From NCBI GenBank assembly GCA_002280515.1, contig NCEA01000018.1, positions 43,900-107,899 on the forward strand: a stretch of 64,000 bases of DNA. The letters are read 5' to 3'. Under the pieces are notes generated by a model. That model ran no database searches. It was not told the DNA's origin and saw only the letters and a list, made by a program, of their open reading frames with translations. The first letter of the stretch is position 1; each line of letters starts with the position of its first letter. Of this stretch, positions 20,740-43,042 are shown in pieces. The position numbers and the translations under genes were made by a program. This DNA is from Rhodobacterales bacterium 32-67-9 (GTDB lineage: Bacteria; Pseudomonadota; Alphaproteobacteria; Rhodobacterales; Rhodobacteraceae).

Positions 20740-23160
20740 ATGAAATTCACCCTCTCCTGGCTGAAAGACCATCTCGAGACCGAGGCGAGCCTCGACGAGA
20801 TCCTCTATGCGCTGACCGACCTCGGCCTTGAGGTCGAGGAGGTCGAGGACCCGGCGGAGAAGCTCGGCGCGTTCCGCATCTGCCGCGTGATCGAAGCCAG
20901 GCAGCATCCCGATGCCGACCGGCTGAAGCTCTGCCGCGTCGCCACCTGGCCCGACGGCCCCGAGGGCCGGATGGAAGAGGTGCAGGTGGTCTGCGGCGCG
21001 CCGAACGCGCGCACCGGCCTTGTCGGCGTCTTCGCCCCGGTCGGCACCCATGTGCCGGGCACCGGCGTCGACCTGAAGCCGGGCGTGATCCGCGGCGTCG
21101 AAAGCAACGGGATGCTCTGTTCCGAGCGGGAGCTGGAACTGTCGGACAACCATGACGGCATCATCGACCTGCCCGAGGATGCCCCGGTCGGGGTGCGATT
21201 CATCGACTGGCGCGGCCTCAACGACCCGATGATCTACATCAAGGTGACGCCGAACCGCCCCGATGCGCTCGGCGTGCGCGGCCTTGCCCGCGACCTTGCC
21301 GCGCGGGGGCTCGGCCGGCTGAAGCCGCAAGCGATTGAGCCGGTCAAGGGAGCGTTCAAGAGCCCGATCGGCGTCAGGATCGACCCGGCGCTGAAGGAGA
21401 AGGGCTGCCCCTTGTTCGCCGGCCGGGTGATCCGGGGGGTGAAGAACGGGCCGTCGCCGCTCTGGCTCCAGCAGCGGCTGAAGGCCATTGGCCTCCGTCC
21501 GATCTCGGCGCTTGTCGACATCACCAACTTCTTCACCTTCGACCAGAACCGGCCCTTGCATGTCTTCGATGCCGACAAGGTGAAAGGCGATCTGCGCATC
21601 CTTCCGGCGAAAGGCGGCGAGACGCTTCTGGCGCTCGACGACCGGACCTATGCGTTCCAGCCGGGGATGATGGTCATCTCTGATGACGCAGGGCCCGAAA
21701 GCATCGCCGGGGTGATGGGCGGCGAGCCGTCGGGCTGCACCGAGGAGACGGTGAACGTCTTTCTCGAAAGCGCCTACTGGGATCCGATCACCGTGGCGAC
21801 CACGGGGCGGGCGCTACGGATCAATTCCGACGCGCGCTACCGGTTCGAGCGGGGCGTGGACCCGGAGTTTACCCTGCCGGGGCTGGAAGCGGCGACGGCG
21901 ATGGTGCTGGAGCTTTGCGGCGGCGAAGCCTCGGACGTGGTCATGGACGGGGCTGTGCCGGCGGTGGAGCGCGCCTACCGGCTCGACCCCGAGCGGGTGG
22001 TGTCGCTCGTCGGCATGAACATCCCCGAGGGCGAGCAGCGCGCCACGCTGGAGGCGCTTGGCTTCACGCTGAAGGGCGACATGGCCACGCCGCCGTCCTG
22101 GCGGCCGGATATCCAGGGCGAGGCGGATCTCATCGAGGAGGTGGCGCGGATCGCGTCGCTGACGAAGCTTGAAGGCAAGCCGATGCGGCGCGCGAAACCG
22201 GGCGTGCCGAAACCGATCCTGACGCCGATGCAGATGCGCGAGAAGGCGGCACGGCGGATGCTGGCGGCCCTGGGCTACAACGAATGCGTGACCTATTCGT
22301 TCATCGACGGCGCCTCGGCCACGCTCTTCGGCGGCGGGGCGGAGGGGACACGGATCGAGAACCCGATCTCCTCGGAGATGACGCATATGCGGCCGTCGCT
22401 GCTGCCGGGGCTCCTCAAGGCCGCGGCGCGCAATCAGGCGCGCGGGTTCATGGACCTCGCGTTCTTCGAGGTCGGCCCGGTCTTTTCGGGCGGCGAGCCG
22501 GGCGAGCAGGAGATCCTCGCGACCGGCCTTCTGGTCGGGAACTCGGCGGCGCGCGATCCCTACGGGTCGCGGCGGGCGGTCGACCTTTACGATGCGAAGG
22601 CCGATGCGGAAGCGGTGCTGGCCGCGCTTGGCGCGCCGTCGAAGCTGATGTTCCAGCGCAATGCCAAGGACTGGTGGCATCCGGGCCGGTCGGCGCGGCT
22701 GTCGCTGGGGCCGAAGCTGATCCTTGGCTCGTTCGGGGAACTGCACCCGAAGGTGCTGATGGCGACCGGCGTCAAGGGCCCCGCCGTCGCCTTCGCCATC
22801 CACATCGGCGCCATCCCCTTTGCCAAGGCGCGGACCACCACGCGACCGGCGCTGGACAGTTCCGACCTTCAGGCGGTGGAGCGCGATTTCGCATTCGTCG
22901 TCGATCACGCTGTCGAGGCGCTGACCCTCGTCAATGCCGCGCAAGGGGTCGACAAGGCGCTGATCGAGGGCGTCCGGGTGTTCGACGAATTCGCCGGCGC
23001 CAAGGCCGAGGCGCAGATGGGGGTGGGGAAGAAATCGCTCGCCATCACGGTCCGGTTGCAGCCGCGCGACAAGACCCTGACCGACGAGGAGATCGAGGCG
23101 GTTTCGGCGAAGGTCGTCGCGAAGGTGGCGGCGGCCACCGGCGGCGTCTTGCGGGGGTAG
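20740..23160 (+). CDS. pheT: phenylalanyl-tRNA synthetase beta subunit
   Basis: 806 residues in normal order: the tRNA-binding (EMAP-like) domain near residues 40-150 (ADRLKLCRV, VCGAPNAR), B3/B4 editing domain, B5 domain, a catalytic-like core and a C-terminal ferredoxin-fold anticodon-binding domain (VERDFAFVVDHAVEA). Start ATG 20740 (MKFTLSWLKDHLETEASLDEI). Because a terminator stands between it and pheS, it probably has its own promoter in the 20660-20739 gap; I could not place one with confidence. Confidence 0.95.
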   Translation: MKFTLSWLKDHLETEASLDEILYALTDLGLEVEEVEDPAEKLGAFRICRVIEARQHPDADRLKLCRVATWPDGPEGRMEEVQVVCGAPNARTGLVGVFAPVGTHVPGTGVDLKPGVIRGVESNGMLCSERELELSDNHDGIIDLPEDAPVGVRFIDWRGLNDPMIYIKVTPNRPDALGVRGLARDLAARGLGRLKPQAIEPVKGAFKSPIGVRIDPALKEKGCPLFAGRVIRGVKNGPSPLWLQQRLKAIGLRPISALVDITNFFTFDQNRPLHVFDADKVKGDLRILPAKGGETLLALDDRTYAFQPGMMVISDDAGPESIAGVMGGEPSGCTEETVNVFLESAYWDPITVATTGRALRINSDARYRFERGVDPEFTLPGLEAATAMVLELCGGEASDVVMDGAVPAVERAYRLDPERVVSLVGMNIPEGEQRATLEALGFTLKGDMATPPSWRPDIQGEADLIEEVARIASLTKLEGKPMRRAKPGVPKPILTPMQMREKAARRMLAALGYNECVTYSFIDGASATLFGGGAEGTRIENPISSEMTHMRPSLLPGLLKAAARNQARGFMDLAFFEVGPVFSGGEPGEQEILATGLLVGNSAARDPYGSRRAVDLYDAKADAEAVLAALGAPSKLMFQRNAKDWWHPGRSARLSLGPKLILGSFGELHPKVLMATGVKGPAVAFAIHIGAIPFAKARTTTRPALDSSDLQAVERDFAFVVDHAVEALTLVNAAQGVDKALIEGVRVFDEFAGAKAEAQMGVGKKSLAITVRLQPRDKTLTDEEIEAVSAKVVAKVAAATGGVLRG

Positions 23161-37216: not shown

Positions 37217-37498
37217 ATGAAATGTCCCGTCGACAACACCACGCTCGTCATGGCCGACAGGAACGGTGTCGAGATCGATTACTGCCCGAGCTGCCGCGGG
37301 GTCTGGCTCGACCGTGGCGAGCTCGACAAGATCATCGACCGGAGCACCGCCGAAACCCAGCGTCCCGTGGCGCTGAACGAGCCGGCGCGCGCCCCGCGCG
37401 AGGAGCGCCGCAGTCGCGACGACGATGACGACGACGACCGCCGCTATCCGCGCAAGAAGCGTCGCGAAAGCTTCCTGTCGGAGCTTTTCGACTTCTGA
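37217..37498 (+). CDS. zf-TFIIB domain protein
   Basis: 93 residues. MKCPVD...VEIDYCPSCRGVWLDRGELDKII is the zf-TFIIB zinc ribbon, with Cys residues near 3, 23 and 26. The tail is a low-complexity Arg/Asp stretch (SRDDDDDDDRRYPRKKRRE) and ends SFLSELFDF. Function not known; common as a small nucleic-acid- or protein-binding zinc protein. GAGAGAC precedes the start. Confidence 0.85.
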   Translation: MKCPVDNTTLVMADRNGVEIDYCPSCRGVWLDRGELDKIIDRSTAETQRPVALNEPARAPREERRSRDDDDDDDRRYPRKKRRESFLSELFDF

Positions 37499-37566: not shown

Positions 37567-37884
37567 ATGCCGAAGATTTCCAGCGACTTCAACGGCCAGA
37601 CCGTGATCACCACTTTCGAGATGACGCCGGGCACGGCGCACGACCTGATGGACGCGCTTCGCGATGCCTACGAACAGTTCATCCGTAACCAGCCCGGCTT
37701 CATCGCGGCGGGTCTCCATATGAACGATGCCCAGACCCGGATCGCGAACTATTCGCAATGGCGTGACCGGAAGGACTTCCAGGCGATGCTGCGGACCCCC
37801 GAGATGCGCGAACGGAACCGGCGCATCGCCGAACTCTGCTCGCGGTTCGAGCCGGTGATGTACGAGATCGCGGAGGTCTTCTGA
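37567..37884 (+). CDS. antibiotic biosynthesis monooxygenase (ABM)-like protein
   Basis: 105 residues, dimeric alpha/beta barrel type: EMTPGTAHDLMDALRDAYEQFIRNQPGFIAAGLHMNDAQTRIANYSQWRDRKDFQAML. The pattern QPGF...NYSQWRD is typical of ABM domains. No cofactor site is visible. Enzyme activity cannot be assumed. Confidence 0.75.
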   Translation: MPKISSDFNGQTVITTFEMTPGTAHDLMDALRDAYEQFIRNQPGFIAAGLHMNDAQTRIANYSQWRDRKDFQAMLRTPEMRERNRRIAELCSRFEPVMYEIAEVF

Positions 37885-38698: not shown

Positions 38699-39020
38699 TG
38701 CGCCACACTCTGGCCGGGCGGCGGGGCGGAATCAAGCGCCGGCTGGTGCGGAGGGGGCAGCCGTCACCGATGGGCCGGGCCGACGTATCGCCGGGCAAGA
38801 CGTTTCGCGCCTCGGTCGGCGGCGAAAGCCGTTCCGGCGGTCGCGGACTTATGGGCGCGCGGTTGCCGAAGATGATGAGCGGGCCGGAGTTCCCGGCCAC
38901 CCGAAAGCCGCGCCGTCCGATCCCGGCCACGAGCCGGCCATGCCGGTGAAGCACTCGATGCCGCGCGCCCTGCGGCGAATGACGGCGCACTCTTGGCCTG
39001 CCTTCGAGGCGAAAAGGTCT
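38699..39020. other. no gene recognised
   Basis: The stretch between the metallopeptidase and the first hairpin repeat. Frames are open on both strands, as expected at this G+C, but none has a convincing start or family match. The remainder up to 39530 holds the three repeats listed below and a short frame (39274-39348, ending GGSGEVVPE) that I cannot assign. Confidence 0.4.
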
Positions 39021-39094
39021 GTAGGGTGCGTGATTTCACGCACCGGTTGGCGTGGATGAATGGTGCGTGCGAGCACGCACCCTACGGCTTGCTC
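39021..39094. repeat. double-hairpin extragenic repeat, copy 1
   Basis: GTAGGGTGCGTG (39021-39032) and CACGCACCCTAC (39074-39085) are exact inverted repeats. Each arm also folds on itself (GTGCGTGATTTCACGCAC; GTGCGTGCGAGCACGCAC). GGCTTGCT follows. It may be a non-autonomous mobile repeat (REP or MITE). Confidence 0.65.
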
Positions 39095-39132
39095 GGCCAT
39101 GGTGAGCCGCGGTTGGGCCGTCAGGTCCGATC

Positions 39133-39153
39133 AATCGCTCCAGTGGAGCGATT
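39133..39153. repeat. 9-bp hairpin AATCGCTCC-AGT-GGAGCGATT
   Basis: A perfect 9-bp inverted repeat with a three-base loop between the two double-hairpin copies. Sequences of this shape are scattered through Rhodobacteraceae genomes as extragenic repeats. Confidence 0.5.
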
Positions 39154-39200
39154 GAAGCGGCGAACGCCCGATCAGCAAGGATCGGGCCGGGAGGAGGGCT

Positions 39201-39271
39201 ATAGGATGCGTGATATCACGTACCGACTAGTGCGGGGATGGTGCGTGCGAGCACGCACCCTACGGCTTGCT
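39201..39271. repeat. double-hairpin extragenic repeat, copy 2
   Basis: The right arm (39240-39263) and the following GGCTTGCT are identical to copy 1. The left arm (ATAGGATGCGTGATATCACG, 39201-39220) has diverged by a few bases. Same orientation, 180 bases from copy 1. Confidence 0.65.
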
Positions 39272-39530
39272 GCGGATGAAGGACGGATTGCCGAAGCTCA
39301 AGGACTTCCCCGCCGAACTTGGCGGATCTGGCGAGGTCGTTCCGGAGTAGGGGCGGGGCCGTCTTTTGGCCGTCGTTTGACCGTCGGTTCGGCGTAGGTT
39401 TCGCGTAGTTTTTCCGTCCCTTCGCCCCGCGCCGCCGCAGGGCGGCGGTAAGGGGCTGCCTGTCCGCCAGGCACCTGCGTTCGGACGCGCGCTCCCATCC
39501 CCACGAGGGGGGAGGAAGGGAGGTATACAT

Positions 39531-40505
39531 TTAAAGCTGCAGTTTCAATTTGCCAGCGGCGATCAGGGCTGCGACGTGTGCGGATGCCTCCGGGTTGGTG
39601 CTACTACCGCCGAATTTCTTGTGCGGGTCGTATTGGCCAGGCGGAGCTATTGTCGAAACGGTGGATGCAACGCGCACGAACCTACGCTCCGTACTGTCTC
39701 CAGTTTTCTCATCGAGTTGATAATGACCAAGGAATCTGAATAGCCGATTGCCCAAGACGTCCTCAATTTTGCCAAAGACGTAGCGCTCTTTTGCATCCGG
39801 CTTTTTTGTATCGGAAACAACTGGATTTCCGTTACATCGCTTTTCAGTGATTATCGTCTCATCTTCGGAAAGTTCGTTAACCCAGGTGCCGCCCTCGAAG
39901 AATCTTGGAAACCAAACAACGAAGCCCGGGCGTTCGGGAATTCTCCATGTTCCATGCTGCAAGATTTCCTTGTTGAATCCAAAGCAGCGGAGCGCGGATA
40001 CCTTACTCCGGAAAATCGCGTGTTCGTCAGAAGATATCGAGCCTTTCTTATAATACTGCTCCGGATGATCCAAATTGTCAGCCGTCCAAGCAACGAAGGA
40101 ATTTACGCGGATCTGTTGCTCTTTCAAATCTTTCAGTCGTTCAACCAGACGGTCGACACTTTTGTTCACGGTCGCAAGTGTGTGTTCTTTGTGCGACGAT
40201 TTGTCATAAGTCGCTATCCTTACAATCTGATGTTTCGTCTTGGCCAAGATAATATCAGAGCGATGAGAGTCACGTTCTTCCTGACGCGCGTGCCCTCCCA
40301 CCTCATCGATCTCCAAATGCAGTTCGAACTGCGGAAAATAAACGTCAGTGAGGAACCTTGCCCCACCCGCGGCCACATGTTGTTGACAAATGAACTCGAT
40401 CTCCGGGTCGTCCAGACGATGCACTAGGCGATTTACTACATAGTGTTCCCAAGTTTTTCCGACCAGCTTTGCCAAGCTCTTTCTAATGTAGCTGTCTCGA
40501 TCCAA
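39531..40505 (-). CDS. PvuRts1I/AbaSI-like modification-dependent restriction endonuclease
   Basis: 324 residues, the size of the PvuRts1I family. The N-terminal half has FLTDVYFPQFELHLEIDE (residues 51-68) followed by a His at 72 and SDIILAKTKHQIVRI. This is a Vsr-like PD-(D/E)xK nuclease core as in PvuRts1I, where a TD-YFPQ-EVDE block is conserved. The C-terminal half has RYVFGKIEDVLGNRLFRF and a FVRVASTVST strand near 276-285, resembling the SRA-like domain that reads hydroxymethyl- or glucosyl-hydroxymethyl-cytosine. Such enzymes cut T-even-type modified phage DNA and need no own methylase; none is present. The gene is much AT-richer than its surroundings and sits beside extragenic repeats. 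Start is TTG 40505 with GGGAGA upstream and a TATATT-like -10 box near 40547. Family assignment is from recalled motifs. Confidence 0.7.
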   Translation of the reverse strand: MDRDSYIRKSLAKLVGKTWEHYVVNRLVHRLDDPEIEFICQQHVAAGGARFLTDVYFPQFELHLEIDEVGGHARQEERDSHRSDIILAKTKHQIVRIATYDKSSHKEHTLATVNKSVDRLVERLKDLKEQQIRVNSFVAWTADNLDHPEQYYKKGSISSDEHAIFRSKVSALRCFGFNKEILQHGTWRIPERPGFVVWFPRFFEGGTWVNELSEDETIITEKRCNGNPVVSDTKKPDAKERYVFGKIEDVLGNRLFRFLGHYQLDEKTGDSTERRFVRVASTVSTIAPPGQYDPHKKFGGSSTNPEASAHVAALIAAGKLKLQL

Positions 40506-40572
40506 CTGCGATCTCCCTAGAGAAATCCCTCGATACTGGGCGCCCGAATATAATCACCTGTTCTAAACTATG

Positions 40573-42750
40573 TCACCCCCTCCGCCTCTTCCCACCCCTT
40601 TGCCCCGGCCGTCCCGCCGTTGACCGCCCGCGCGCGGCGCCGGCCTTCTCCACCGCTTCCTCGACCGCCGATTGCCGCGCCAGCGGATCGTCGGACAGGA
40701 CCAGATCGACCGCCTCCAGCCGCTTGACTTCGTCCCTGAGCCGGGCGGCCTCTTCGAATTCGAGGTTCTCGGCGGCCTTGCGCATCGCGGTCCTGAGGGC
40801 GTCCAGATGCGCCTCCAGATTGGCGCCGTGCATCGGGCGGTCGACCTTCGCGGTCACCCGGTTCATGTCGACGTCGCCCTTGTAGAGCCCGGCGAGGATA
40901 TCCTCGACGTTCTTCCTGACCGTCGCGGGCGTGATGCCGTGTTCGATGTTATAGGCCACCTGTTTCTCGCGCCGCCGGCTGGTCTCGGCCAGCGCGCGCT
41001 CCATCGAGCCGGTGATCCGGTCGGCATACATGATGACGCGGCCTTCCGCGTTCCGCGCGGCGCGGCCGATGGTCTGGATCAGCGAGGTTTCCGAGCGGAG
41101 GAACCCCTCCTTGTCGGCGTCGAGGATCGCCACGAGGCCACATTCGGGAATGTCGAGCCCCTCGCGCAGAAGGTTGATGCCGACGAGCACGTCGAAAGCG
41201 CCAAGGCGCAGGTCGCGCAGGATCTCGATCCGTTCGATCGTGTCGATGTCGGAATGCATGTAGCGCACGCGGATGCCCTGTTCGTGCATGTATTCCGTCA
41301 GATCCTCGGCCATGCGCTTGGTCAGCGTCGTCACCAGCGTGCGGAAGCCCTTTGCGGCCACTTTTCGCACCTCGTCCAGAAGATCGTCGACCTGCATCTC
41401 GACCGGCCTGATCTCGATCTCGGGGTCGATGAGGCCGGTGGGGCGGATCACCTGTTCGGTGAAGACGCCGCCGGCCTGCTCCAGCTCCCACGCGGCGGGC
41501 GTGGCGGAAACGAAGACCGACTGCGGCCGCATCGCGTCCCATTCCTCGAACTTCAGGGGGCGGTTGTCCATGCAGGAGGGCAGGCGGAAGCCGTGTTCGG
41601 CCAGCGTGAACTTGCGTCGGAAGTCGCCCTTGTACATGCCGCCGATCTGGGGAACCGAGACGTGGGATTCATCGGCGAAGACGATGGCGTGGTCGGGGAT
41701 GAATTCGAAGAGCGTGGGGGGCGGTTCGCCGGGCGCGCGCCCGGTGAGGTAACGCGAATAGTTCTCGATCCCGGCGCAACTGCCGGTGGCCTCCAGCATC
41801 TCCAGATCGAAGTTGCAGCGCTGTTCTAGCCGCTGGGCCTCAAGCAGCTTGCCCTCCTCCTGCAACTGTTTCAACCGCAGGGCCAGTTCCTTGCGGATAC
41901 CCTGTATCGCCTGCTGGAGCGTCGGGCGCGGGGTGACGTAGTGCGAATTCGCGTAGATGCGGATCTTCTCGAACGTGTCGGTCTTCTGGCCGGTCAGCGG
42001 GTCGAATTCGATGATGCCTTCCAGTTCCTCGCCGAAGAAGCTGAATTTCCACGCCCGGTCCTCGAGGTGGGCGGGCCAGACGTCGACAGTATCGCCCTTG
42101 ACCCGGAAGGCGCCGCGCTGGAAGGCAGCGTCGGCGCGGCGGTATTGCTGGGCGACAAGCTCCGACAGGAACTTGCGCTGGTCGTAGAGCTTGCCGACCT
42201 CCATGTCCTGGGTCATCGCCGAATAGGTCTCGACCGAGCCGATGCCGTAGATGCAGGAGACGGAGGCGACGATGATCACGTCGTCACGTTCCAGAAGCGA
42301 CCGGGTCGCCGAGTGGCGCATCCGGTCGATCTGTTCGTTGATCTGGGATTCCTTCTCGATATAGGTGTCGGTGCGGGCGACATAGGCCTCGGGCTGGTAA
42401 TAGTCGTAGTAGCTGACGAAGTATTCGACGGAATTCTCGGGGAAGAAGCCCTTGAACTCGCCGTAAAGCTGGGCGGCGAGCGTCTTGTTCGGCGCCAGGA
42501 TGATCGCCGGGCGCTGGGTTTCCTCGATCACCTTGGCCATGGTGAAGGTCTTGCCGGTCCCTGTCGCGCCGAGGAGCACCTGGTCGCGTTCGCCGGACAG
42601 AACCCCGGCGGAAAGCTCGGCGATGGCGGTGGGCTGGTCGCCCGCGGCGTCGAAATCGGTCTTCATCACGAAACGCCGGCCACCTTCGAGCTTGGGGCGG
42701 GTCAGCACCTCGGGGCGCGGGCTGGGGGCGTTGGTATTGTTGTGCGGCAT
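40573..42750 (-). CDS. uvrB: excinuclease ABC subunit B
   Basis: 725 residues. [17 protein letters not shown] (Walker A), the beta-hairpin [32 protein letters not shown], helicase motifs V-VI ([32 protein letters not shown]), and a UvrC-binding UVR motif near the end ([28 protein letters not shown]). The tail is Arg/Gly-rich. Start ATG 42750 follows a GGAAGGAATC ribosome-binding site. Damage verification in nucleotide excision repair. Confidence 0.95.
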
Positions 42751-42915
42751 GACGATTCCTTCCGGTCCCCGAGATTTGATCTGTTTTTGTTCCGGTTCAA
42801 GGCCAATAGCGGCAGAGTATTGTCCATCATTGCGAAACGATGGGGGCGCATCTAGCGATCTGTCATTGTTGCGGAAAAGTTGACGGGAAATTGTCGAATT
42901 AAATTCAACTTTAGG

Positions 42916-43042
42916 TTGCGGTGCGCGAAATCCGGTCCTAGATTTAATGGGCAAGCAGCGCTGACTGCCGGTCCCGGCACCCACCCAGCCACCACCCACC
43001 CACGCTCCCCAGAGCATGAGACCGGCAGTCAGCCCTGCTTGC
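42916..43042 (+). ncRNA. candidate structured RNA: promoter, 23-bp stem, C-rich loop
   Basis: A promoter-like pair TTGCGG (42916-42921) and TAGATT (42939-42944), 17 bases apart, points to a start near 42950. There a 23-base arm (42951-42973) begins that pairs, with one mismatch, with 43020-43042. The 46-base loop between is almost free of G and built of CCACCC-like units. It could base-pair with Shine-Dalgarno sequences, as proposed for C-rich-loop small RNAs of alphaproteobacteria. No terminator is obvious before the convergent gene at 43269. No protein gene fits here. Confidence 0.4.

Follow-up and report, generated by a model that had tools for sequence, protein, structure and literature searches.

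An AbaSI/PvuRts1I-family nuclease gene as probable cargo of a variable islet behind uvrB in a Rhodobacterales genome

Analysis of a 64,000-nucleotide stretch of Rhodobacterales DNA, from now on referred to as the window, revealed an open reading frame at 39531-40505 on the reverse strand which, judged by its sequence, is a genuine member of the AbaSI/PvuRts1I family. The reading we favor, with a probability of roughly 0.78, is that the product of this gene is a stand-alone type IV (modification-dependent) restriction enzyme belonging to that family and that the gene arrived as cargo of a variable islet located behind uvrB. The activity, substrate, dimerization, role in phage defense and expression route of the nuclease are what we infer. 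The gene and its parts are located as follows:

39531..40505, reverse strand: putative AbaSI/PvuRts1I-family modification-dependent endonuclease gene, assigned from ORF, Pfam, PADLOC and PDB matches; TTG start, 324 aa
40513..40518, reverse strand: AGGGAG, Shine-Dalgarno-like, 7 nt ahead of the TTG, read directly from the sequence
40161..40490, reverse strand: PvuRts1I-like N-terminal PD-(D/E)XK nuclease domain, aa 6-115 (PF21598, 70 bits against a cut-off of 27)
39654..40055, reverse strand: SRA reader domain, aa 151-284 (PF18491, 77.4 bits against a cut-off of 30.2)
39534..39641, reverse strand: C-terminal tail, aa 289-324, past the profile and PDB matches

The TTG is the sole in-frame ATG, GTG or TTG between the upstream stop codon and the conserved N terminus and aligns with the starts of relatives, PvuRts1I included, which bears out the ORF, strand, start and length proposed in an earlier sequence-only reading of this DNA. 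That reading had also described a composition unlike that of the neighboring genes, and indeed the GC content of the gene is 0.493 against 0.66 for the whole window, with the window minimum (975-bp stretches scanned in 325-bp steps) beginning at 39651, within the gene. The nuclease gene starts 67 bp past the uvrB stop codon and is co-directional with uvrB.

Both halves of the protein are similar to characterized family members. The PvuRts1I-like N-terminal nuclease fold and the SRA-like C-terminal reader, first proposed from the sequence, are matched by PF21598 and PF18491, respectively, while PADLOC assigns the protein to mREase_II (E 7e-73) across aa 1-288. The solved structures matched by sequence are PvuRts1I (4OKY, 4OQ2) and AbaSI (4PAR), with E values from 6e-44 to 4e-41; the one ranked after them stands at 0.12. 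Searching NCBIfam profiles with the nuclease yielded no matches, yet plasmid records label relatives as "AbaSI family restriction endonuclease". Structure prediction and overlay, proposed as a check alongside the original reading, pointed the same way: using an AlphaFold2 model built from five aligned sequences (mean pLDDT 66, pTM 0.52; residues 70-86, 291-308 and 320-324 below 50), Foldseek returned five PDB matches at E <= 0.001, all of them PvuRts1I/AbaSI chains (E 6e-25 to 6e-23). The orientation of the domains in the model is unsure because TM is about 0.5 and rmsd about 9-10 Å against these chains. The C-terminal extension noted earlier is likewise real, as profile and PDB matches stop at residue 284-288 of 324, though a tblastn match to a Thioclava protein extends to residue 305. 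This tail of 36 residues is mostly modeled with low confidence and contains one possible helix at 305-316.

Functionally important residues were mapped via PvuRts1I in an alignment of 18 sequences, consisting of the nuclease and 17 relatives, some of them mutually close (row L010 has no start codon and begins where its match does, row L023 three residues earlier than its match), with contact and mutant data drawn from two PvuRts1I papers (PMC4027163, PMC4157451). Active-site residues K17, E20, D54, E65 and E68, corresponding to K17, E20, D57, E68 and E71 of PvuRts1I, are all kept, as are P58, D67 and H72 of the nuclease domain. The pocket of the SRA domain maps to W198, P200, R201, F203, G205, W208, N210, E221, V230 and R241, and base-pocket residues W198, P200, W208, N210 and E221 (PvuRts1I W205, P207, W215, N217 and E228) are all kept. 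Ala or Lys changes at PvuRts1I E20, D57, E71, W215 and E228 abolish or strongly reduce cutting (PMC4027163, PMC4157451). PvuRts1I dimer contacts H21, N25, R26 and D32 are kept in the nuclease; S12 and S15 are not.

The motif DEVGGH of the nuclease contains one extra residue between E68 and H72, a spacing unique among the 18 aligned sequences, with E-x-x-H found in all 17 relatives. In PvuRts1I enzymes, H74 is listed as absolutely conserved, and mutants in the conserved residue set are stated to be inactive, D70A excepted, in a statement that does not name them individually (PMC4157451). Because the DEVGGH spacing is found in none of the relatives and H74 is described as absolutely conserved, catalysis could be altered by the extra residue ahead of H72. 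It has to be considered that the enlarged active-site spacing and the odd tail reflect relaxed selection after transfer and that the nuclease is inactive or decaying, a possibility which would fit its long branch and the damaged family members seen in related genomes, where G117 carries a copy with a broken frame and G371 a partial copy at the edge of a contig. We regard such decay as distinctly improbable, as all 324 codons of the reading frame are open while the two remaining forward frames contain 13 and 20 stops, and 21 columns are invariant in a 16-row alignment that includes the window protein. Further, the active-site loop varies in length among the aligned relatives and is disordered in one PvuRts1I crystal (PMC4157451), so that His72 may still reach the active site.

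With regard to substrate, Tyr210, A212 and Y237 of PvuRts1I are replaced by Phe203, G205 and V230 in the nuclease. Positions 212 and 237 also vary among relatives, and Phe at the Tyr210 position is otherwise found in 1 of 17 relatives (L018). In PvuRts1I carrying the Y210F change, the 5hmC:5mC:C ratio is 256:8:not detected, up from 32:4:1 (PMC4157451). Since this change sharpened the selectivity of PvuRts1I and Phe203 is natural here, the nuclease is predicted to be a strict 5hmC reader. The same fold might also have acquired a shifted specificity, with the pocket accepting another cytosine modification or being unusually strict for 5hmC over 5mC owing to F203/G205. We give this idea serious weight, in view of the Y210F result and the natural Phe, but lean against it, because it draws on a single-residue analogy at 37% identity and because the stacking and Watson-Crick-edge residues of the pocket are kept.

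As a stand-alone type IV enzyme, which remains our preferred reading, the nuclease would, by analogy with its family, dimerize through its nuclease domains. Enzymes of the family cleave DNA that carries 5hmC or 5ghmC on opposite strands at a spacing of about 20-22 bp (PMC4027163, PMC4259335). Each SRA domain would thus flip out a 5-hydroxymethyl- or glucosyl-hydroxymethylcytosine, on opposite strands and at that distance, and the paired PD-(D/E)XK domains would make a double-strand break between the two modified cytosines. Hydroxymethylated phage DNA would be cut and host DNA spared, with no methylase partner needed. No 5hmC-bearing phage of this host group was recognized in the open-licence published literature. 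Expression of the nuclease could occur through read-through from uvrB or from a promoter of its own.

The nuclease gene is rare and patchy among relatives. Matches were found in 7 of 390 genomes drawn from the order, 2 of 385 from the class and 2 of 398 from the phylum, its own genome being counted each time and the other phylum match being weak (E 8e-4); the frame-broken G117 and fragmentary G371 copies are among the order matches. PF18491 is present in 3 of 394 genomes drawn from the family. The best full-length identity is 40% (G086), with short pieces reaching 54% over 68 residues (G117) and 62% over 39 residues (G371). Among named records, matches are found in 48 plasmids (27 Providencia, 8 Moellerella, 5 Proteus, 1 Thioclava and 7 others) and 10 phage records (the same match in 6 Streptococcus phages and half a gene each in 4 Acinetobacter phage MD-2021a records). 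No viral carrier emerged when the window protein was used as query against viral_contigs (0 matches); with PvuRts1I and the G086 protein as queries, a single contig (L042) came up, at 83% identity to the G086 protein. The window nuclease stands on a long branch of the tree (2.53), and no well-supported group contains it. It thus appears to be a divergent new branch of a small known enzyme family which is already annotated in Rhodobacterales. The original suggestion that members from Rhodobacteraceae are little described holds in so far as no study of a Rhodobacterales AbaSI/PvuRts1I-family enzyme was found in the open-licence published literature, but not for annotation, as a Thioclava plasmid gene already carries the AbaSI family label.

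A few of these relatives have settings of their own. On plasmid p2 of Thioclava sp. GXIMD4216 (L015:7989-12297), the AbaSI-family gene adjoins Mu-type transposase, TniB and TniQ genes. In Streptococcus phage YS225 (L016:2866-5828), it is annotated as hypothetical and lies two genes past a SAM-dependent methyltransferase gene. The broken copy in G117 (L040, G117:C10:15000-30000, contig position ~22107-22932) is interrupted between the active-site loop and the SRA part.

Compared with known enzymes, the nuclease shares domain order, catalytic and main pocket residues and start position with PvuRts1I of Proteus vulgaris plasmid Rts1, to which it is 37% identical in alignment A1 and 34% by tblastn. 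The two differ in the active-site motif (DEAHH in PvuRts1I, DEVGGH here), in the Y210/A212/Y237 to F/G/V replacements and in the 36-residue tail of the window protein; in addition, the PvuRts1I gene lies on a conjugative plasmid backbone whereas the window gene lies behind uvrB. AbaSI of Acinetobacter baumannii has both domains as well (E 4e-41 to chain 4PAR, whose sequence is common to 4PBA and 4PBB). Its homologue L020 carries a long insertion in the active-site loop and is 30% identical to the window protein in A1. The AbaSI-family proteins of Rhodobacterales (Thioclava sp. GXIMD4216 plasmid p2, G086, G145, G157 and G179) belong to the same family and are full-length, but show 27-40% identity to the window nuclease, fall on other tree branches and have the standard E-x-x-H spacing.

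A horizontal origin of the nuclease gene, suggested at the outset, is supported by its composition, by the lack of any nuclease match in the 13 other genomes of the genus searched (G099 and 12 more) and by other AT-rich genes occupying the same place in two congeners. Under the favored reading, the variable islet directly behind uvrB would have acquired the gene as cargo. The neighborhood is made up of the following features:

40573..43017, reverse strand: uvrB ORF with a mechanical ATG start; the islet starts behind its stop codon
39203..39263, no strand: palindromic repeat and degenerate partner, with a folding energy of -30.5 kcal/mol (z -3.6) for 39195-39270
39021..39085, no strand: pair of extragenic palindromic repeats, with a folding energy of -44 kcal/mol (z -5.6) for 39005-39100
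38851..39019, reverse strand: degenerate small block, with 76% DNA identity to a block that follows the cargo gene in congener G106, and also found in L083
37901..38698, reverse strand: DUF6782 putative metallopeptidase gene, located between the islet and the right-flank markers
37567..37884, forward strand: ABM monooxygenase-like gene, which marks the right flank and occurs downstream of uvrB in 15 of 41 regions
37217..37498, forward strand: Zn_ribbon_TFIIB gene, right-flank marker, downstream of uvrB in 8 of 41 regions

The true uvrB start may lie further in, because matches in relatives begin at residue 5-98 of the mechanical ORF. Among plasmid records, the 8 best matches of the uvrB product are from Paracoccus (4), Pseudorhodobacter (1) and Thioclava (3), which indirectly supports placement in Rhodobacterales. 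Past uvrB, the order in the window is nuclease, palindromes, degenerate block, DUF6782 gene and flank markers; the identified neighbors, namely the uvrB, DUF6782, ABM and Zn-ribbon genes, include no methyltransferase. A ParA-like gene is found downstream of uvrB in 4 of 41 regions, and the ABM, Zn-ribbon and ParA-like markers lie at 0.2-7 kb. Paracoccus ferrooxidans pFER4 carries a short form of the neighborhood, in which a 288-bp hypothetical gene, then ParA and ABM come after uvrB. The right flank is not universal, since two inspected Thioclava plasmid copies of uvrB have other neighbors and most of the 41 regions are without markers within reach.

The repeats that had been noticed in the sequence are real and lie downstream of the nuclease gene, on that side only, so that the initial description of the islet as repeat-flanked was too strong. 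Palindromic units are located at 39025-39044, 39062-39081 and 39240-39259, inside the two strong-hairpin stretches. A genome-wide abundant repeat can be ruled out, as a search allowing up to 2 mismatches finds the palindromes in just five places of the 3.7-Mb draft genome, the two in the window among them. Across the 41 regions, two palindrome types gave 23 matches in seven genomes, 19 of which, in five genomes, lie at most 2 kb behind uvrB. Perfect 9-bp stems are densest in the first kb behind uvrB (0.68 per kb compared with 0.07-0.34 elsewhere). The palindromes begin at the uvrB stop in L094 and L110, both of which fail the low-GC test described below, and follow the cargo gene in the window, L111 and L090. 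This suggests that they are a boundary mark in a few genomes, though they may merely reflect non-coding DNA. Clusters of the second palindrome type, GGTGGGCA...TGCCCACC, were observed 0-1.6 kb behind uvrB in L090 and L110. Promoter and terminator signals in 39000-41000 were dismissed, with 2 promoters compared with a shuffle mean of 1.0 and 2 terminators compared with 2.2; one promoter-like match lies at the uvrB-nuclease junction (40576-40547), in a region where such matches are not above chance.

Across this bacterial family, AT-rich cargo genes, most of them unrelated to one another, are often located behind uvrB. Congener G099 encodes a 246-aa protein with a Fic domain there, congener G106 a 178-aa protein and G003, from another genus of the family, a 177-aa protein, the latter two without a Pfam match; the G106 uvrB frame as detected overruns the usual end, hence its cargo ORF was scanned as 149 aa. 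A first sample consisted of 16-kb regions around uvrB from 41 genomes (the window, G099, G106 and 38 more), several of them cut by contig ends, and a second of the next 40 genomes. The 38 and the 40 genomes were taken non-randomly from 120, in order of uvrB identity to the window, with some genomes skipped that had uvrB near the contig start; the 80 regions besides the window are loci L073-L112 and L174-L213. A place was called AT-rich when the first 500 bp past the uvrB stop were at least 0.08 below region GC, a threshold chosen after viewing the first sample and before the second. This was the case in 23 of 41 regions, while of the 925 windows taken elsewhere in these regions 10 qualified; in the second sample, it was the case in 9 of 40 compared with 24 of 872 (Fisher p 4e-6; p-values overstate independence because neither sample is random and the genomes share ancestry). 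The signal is missing from 18 of 41 and 31 of 40 regions, and the first 500 bp are the region GC minimum in 19 of 41 and 6 of 40, respectively. The second sample, in which uvrB is less like that of the window, thus reproduces the uvrB 3' signal at lower strength.

The same signal could arise if the uvrB 3' end were an AT-rich spacer tolerating any insertion, as perhaps found behind other operon-terminal genes, and not a landing site. Most of the cargo is without known family, the site shows no integrase, clear duplicated uvrB end or junction sequence, and the controls are recA, uvrA and nearby ORFs only. We consider a mere spacer rather unlikely, given that in 30 of the first-sample genomes the low-GC test was passed by recA in none, by uvrA in 1 and by uvrB in 18, and that 0 of 85 3' ends of conserved ORFs passed it (uncurated mechanical ORFs that are 200 aa or longer and have blastp matches in three or more other regions). 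Further, 30 of 32 low-GC places (22/23 and 8/9 in the two samples) contain an AT-rich ORF, with the first one co-directional with uvrB in 29/30 and starting at most 120 bases from the uvrB stop in 24/30. Some second-sample ORFs (L174, L197, L208), being short or mildly AT-rich, may be spurious.

The cargo is diverse. A single first-sample pair is related by blastp (L073/L083), and the L199 cargo resembles that of L085 by eye. A Pfam scan covered 23 first-sample and 6 second-sample proteins, leaving out the second ORF of L083, L174, L197 and L208. Matches above cut-off are Fic (L111), Abi_alpha (L079), DUF4145 (L092), DUF5677 (L095) and HNH_3 (L100 and L176, both barely above it), with PADLOC matches of the Fic, Abi_alpha and HNH proteins being weak and partial. 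Two further loci with matches above cut-off carry gene pairs: L086:8075-9151 has, behind uvrB, an HTH_66 (HTH/DUF433-like) gene and then a PIN_10 gene, an arrangement that resembles a toxin-antitoxin pair, and L196:8013-8932 two overlapping AT-rich genes behind uvrB, one without a Pfam match and one Peptidase_M78 (PADLOC capP, E 2e-25). Including the window nuclease, the cargo looks defense-like at 7 of 30 loci as a raw count; 3 of 30 are unscanned and the others have no family or a DUF.

No integrase was found among the 29 cargo proteins scanned. Direct repeats of the uvrB end exceeded 20 control draws in 1 of 23 places (L111, 12 bases compared with a maximum of 11), so that site-specific integration with duplication of the uvrB end is unsupported. 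The longest inverted match to the uvrB end spans 14 bases (L079), these matches having no controls of their own, and no junction sequence was seen by eye. SOS coupling via a LexA box (GTTC-N7-GTTC or GAAC-N7-GAAC) ahead of uvrB was rejected as a general mechanism, since 3 of 41 upstream stretches contain such a box and the window does not.

Use of uvrB transcripts is suggested by the co-directional cargo and short gaps. Tentatively, and at somewhat less than even odds, we propose that the uvrB 3' end in this bacterial family is an undescribed cargo site: single defense-type genes, the AbaSI-family nuclease included, would be swapped in behind the stop codon, mostly within 120 bases and co-directional, and would be expressed from the repair-gene transcript without an integrase of their own, with palindromes marking the outer edge. 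No description of a uvrB 3' cargo site was found in the open-licence published literature. Core-genome defense hotspots such as those of Pseudomonas aeruginosa (PMC10250203) are alike in that variable, partly defense-like cargo recurs at a fixed core place; the uvrB site differs in holding one or two genes each time, co-directional with uvrB, with no integrase in the cargo scanned.

For the enzyme family, which serves 5hmC mapping, the window nuclease offers a natural Phe at the position whose engineered Tyr-to-Phe change sharpened the selectivity of PvuRts1I. If the uvrB 3' end is indeed a reusable cargo site, it would provide a simple way to list candidate defense genes across the bacterial family, and the cargo proteins, most of them now without known family, would be candidates for new anti-phage systems.
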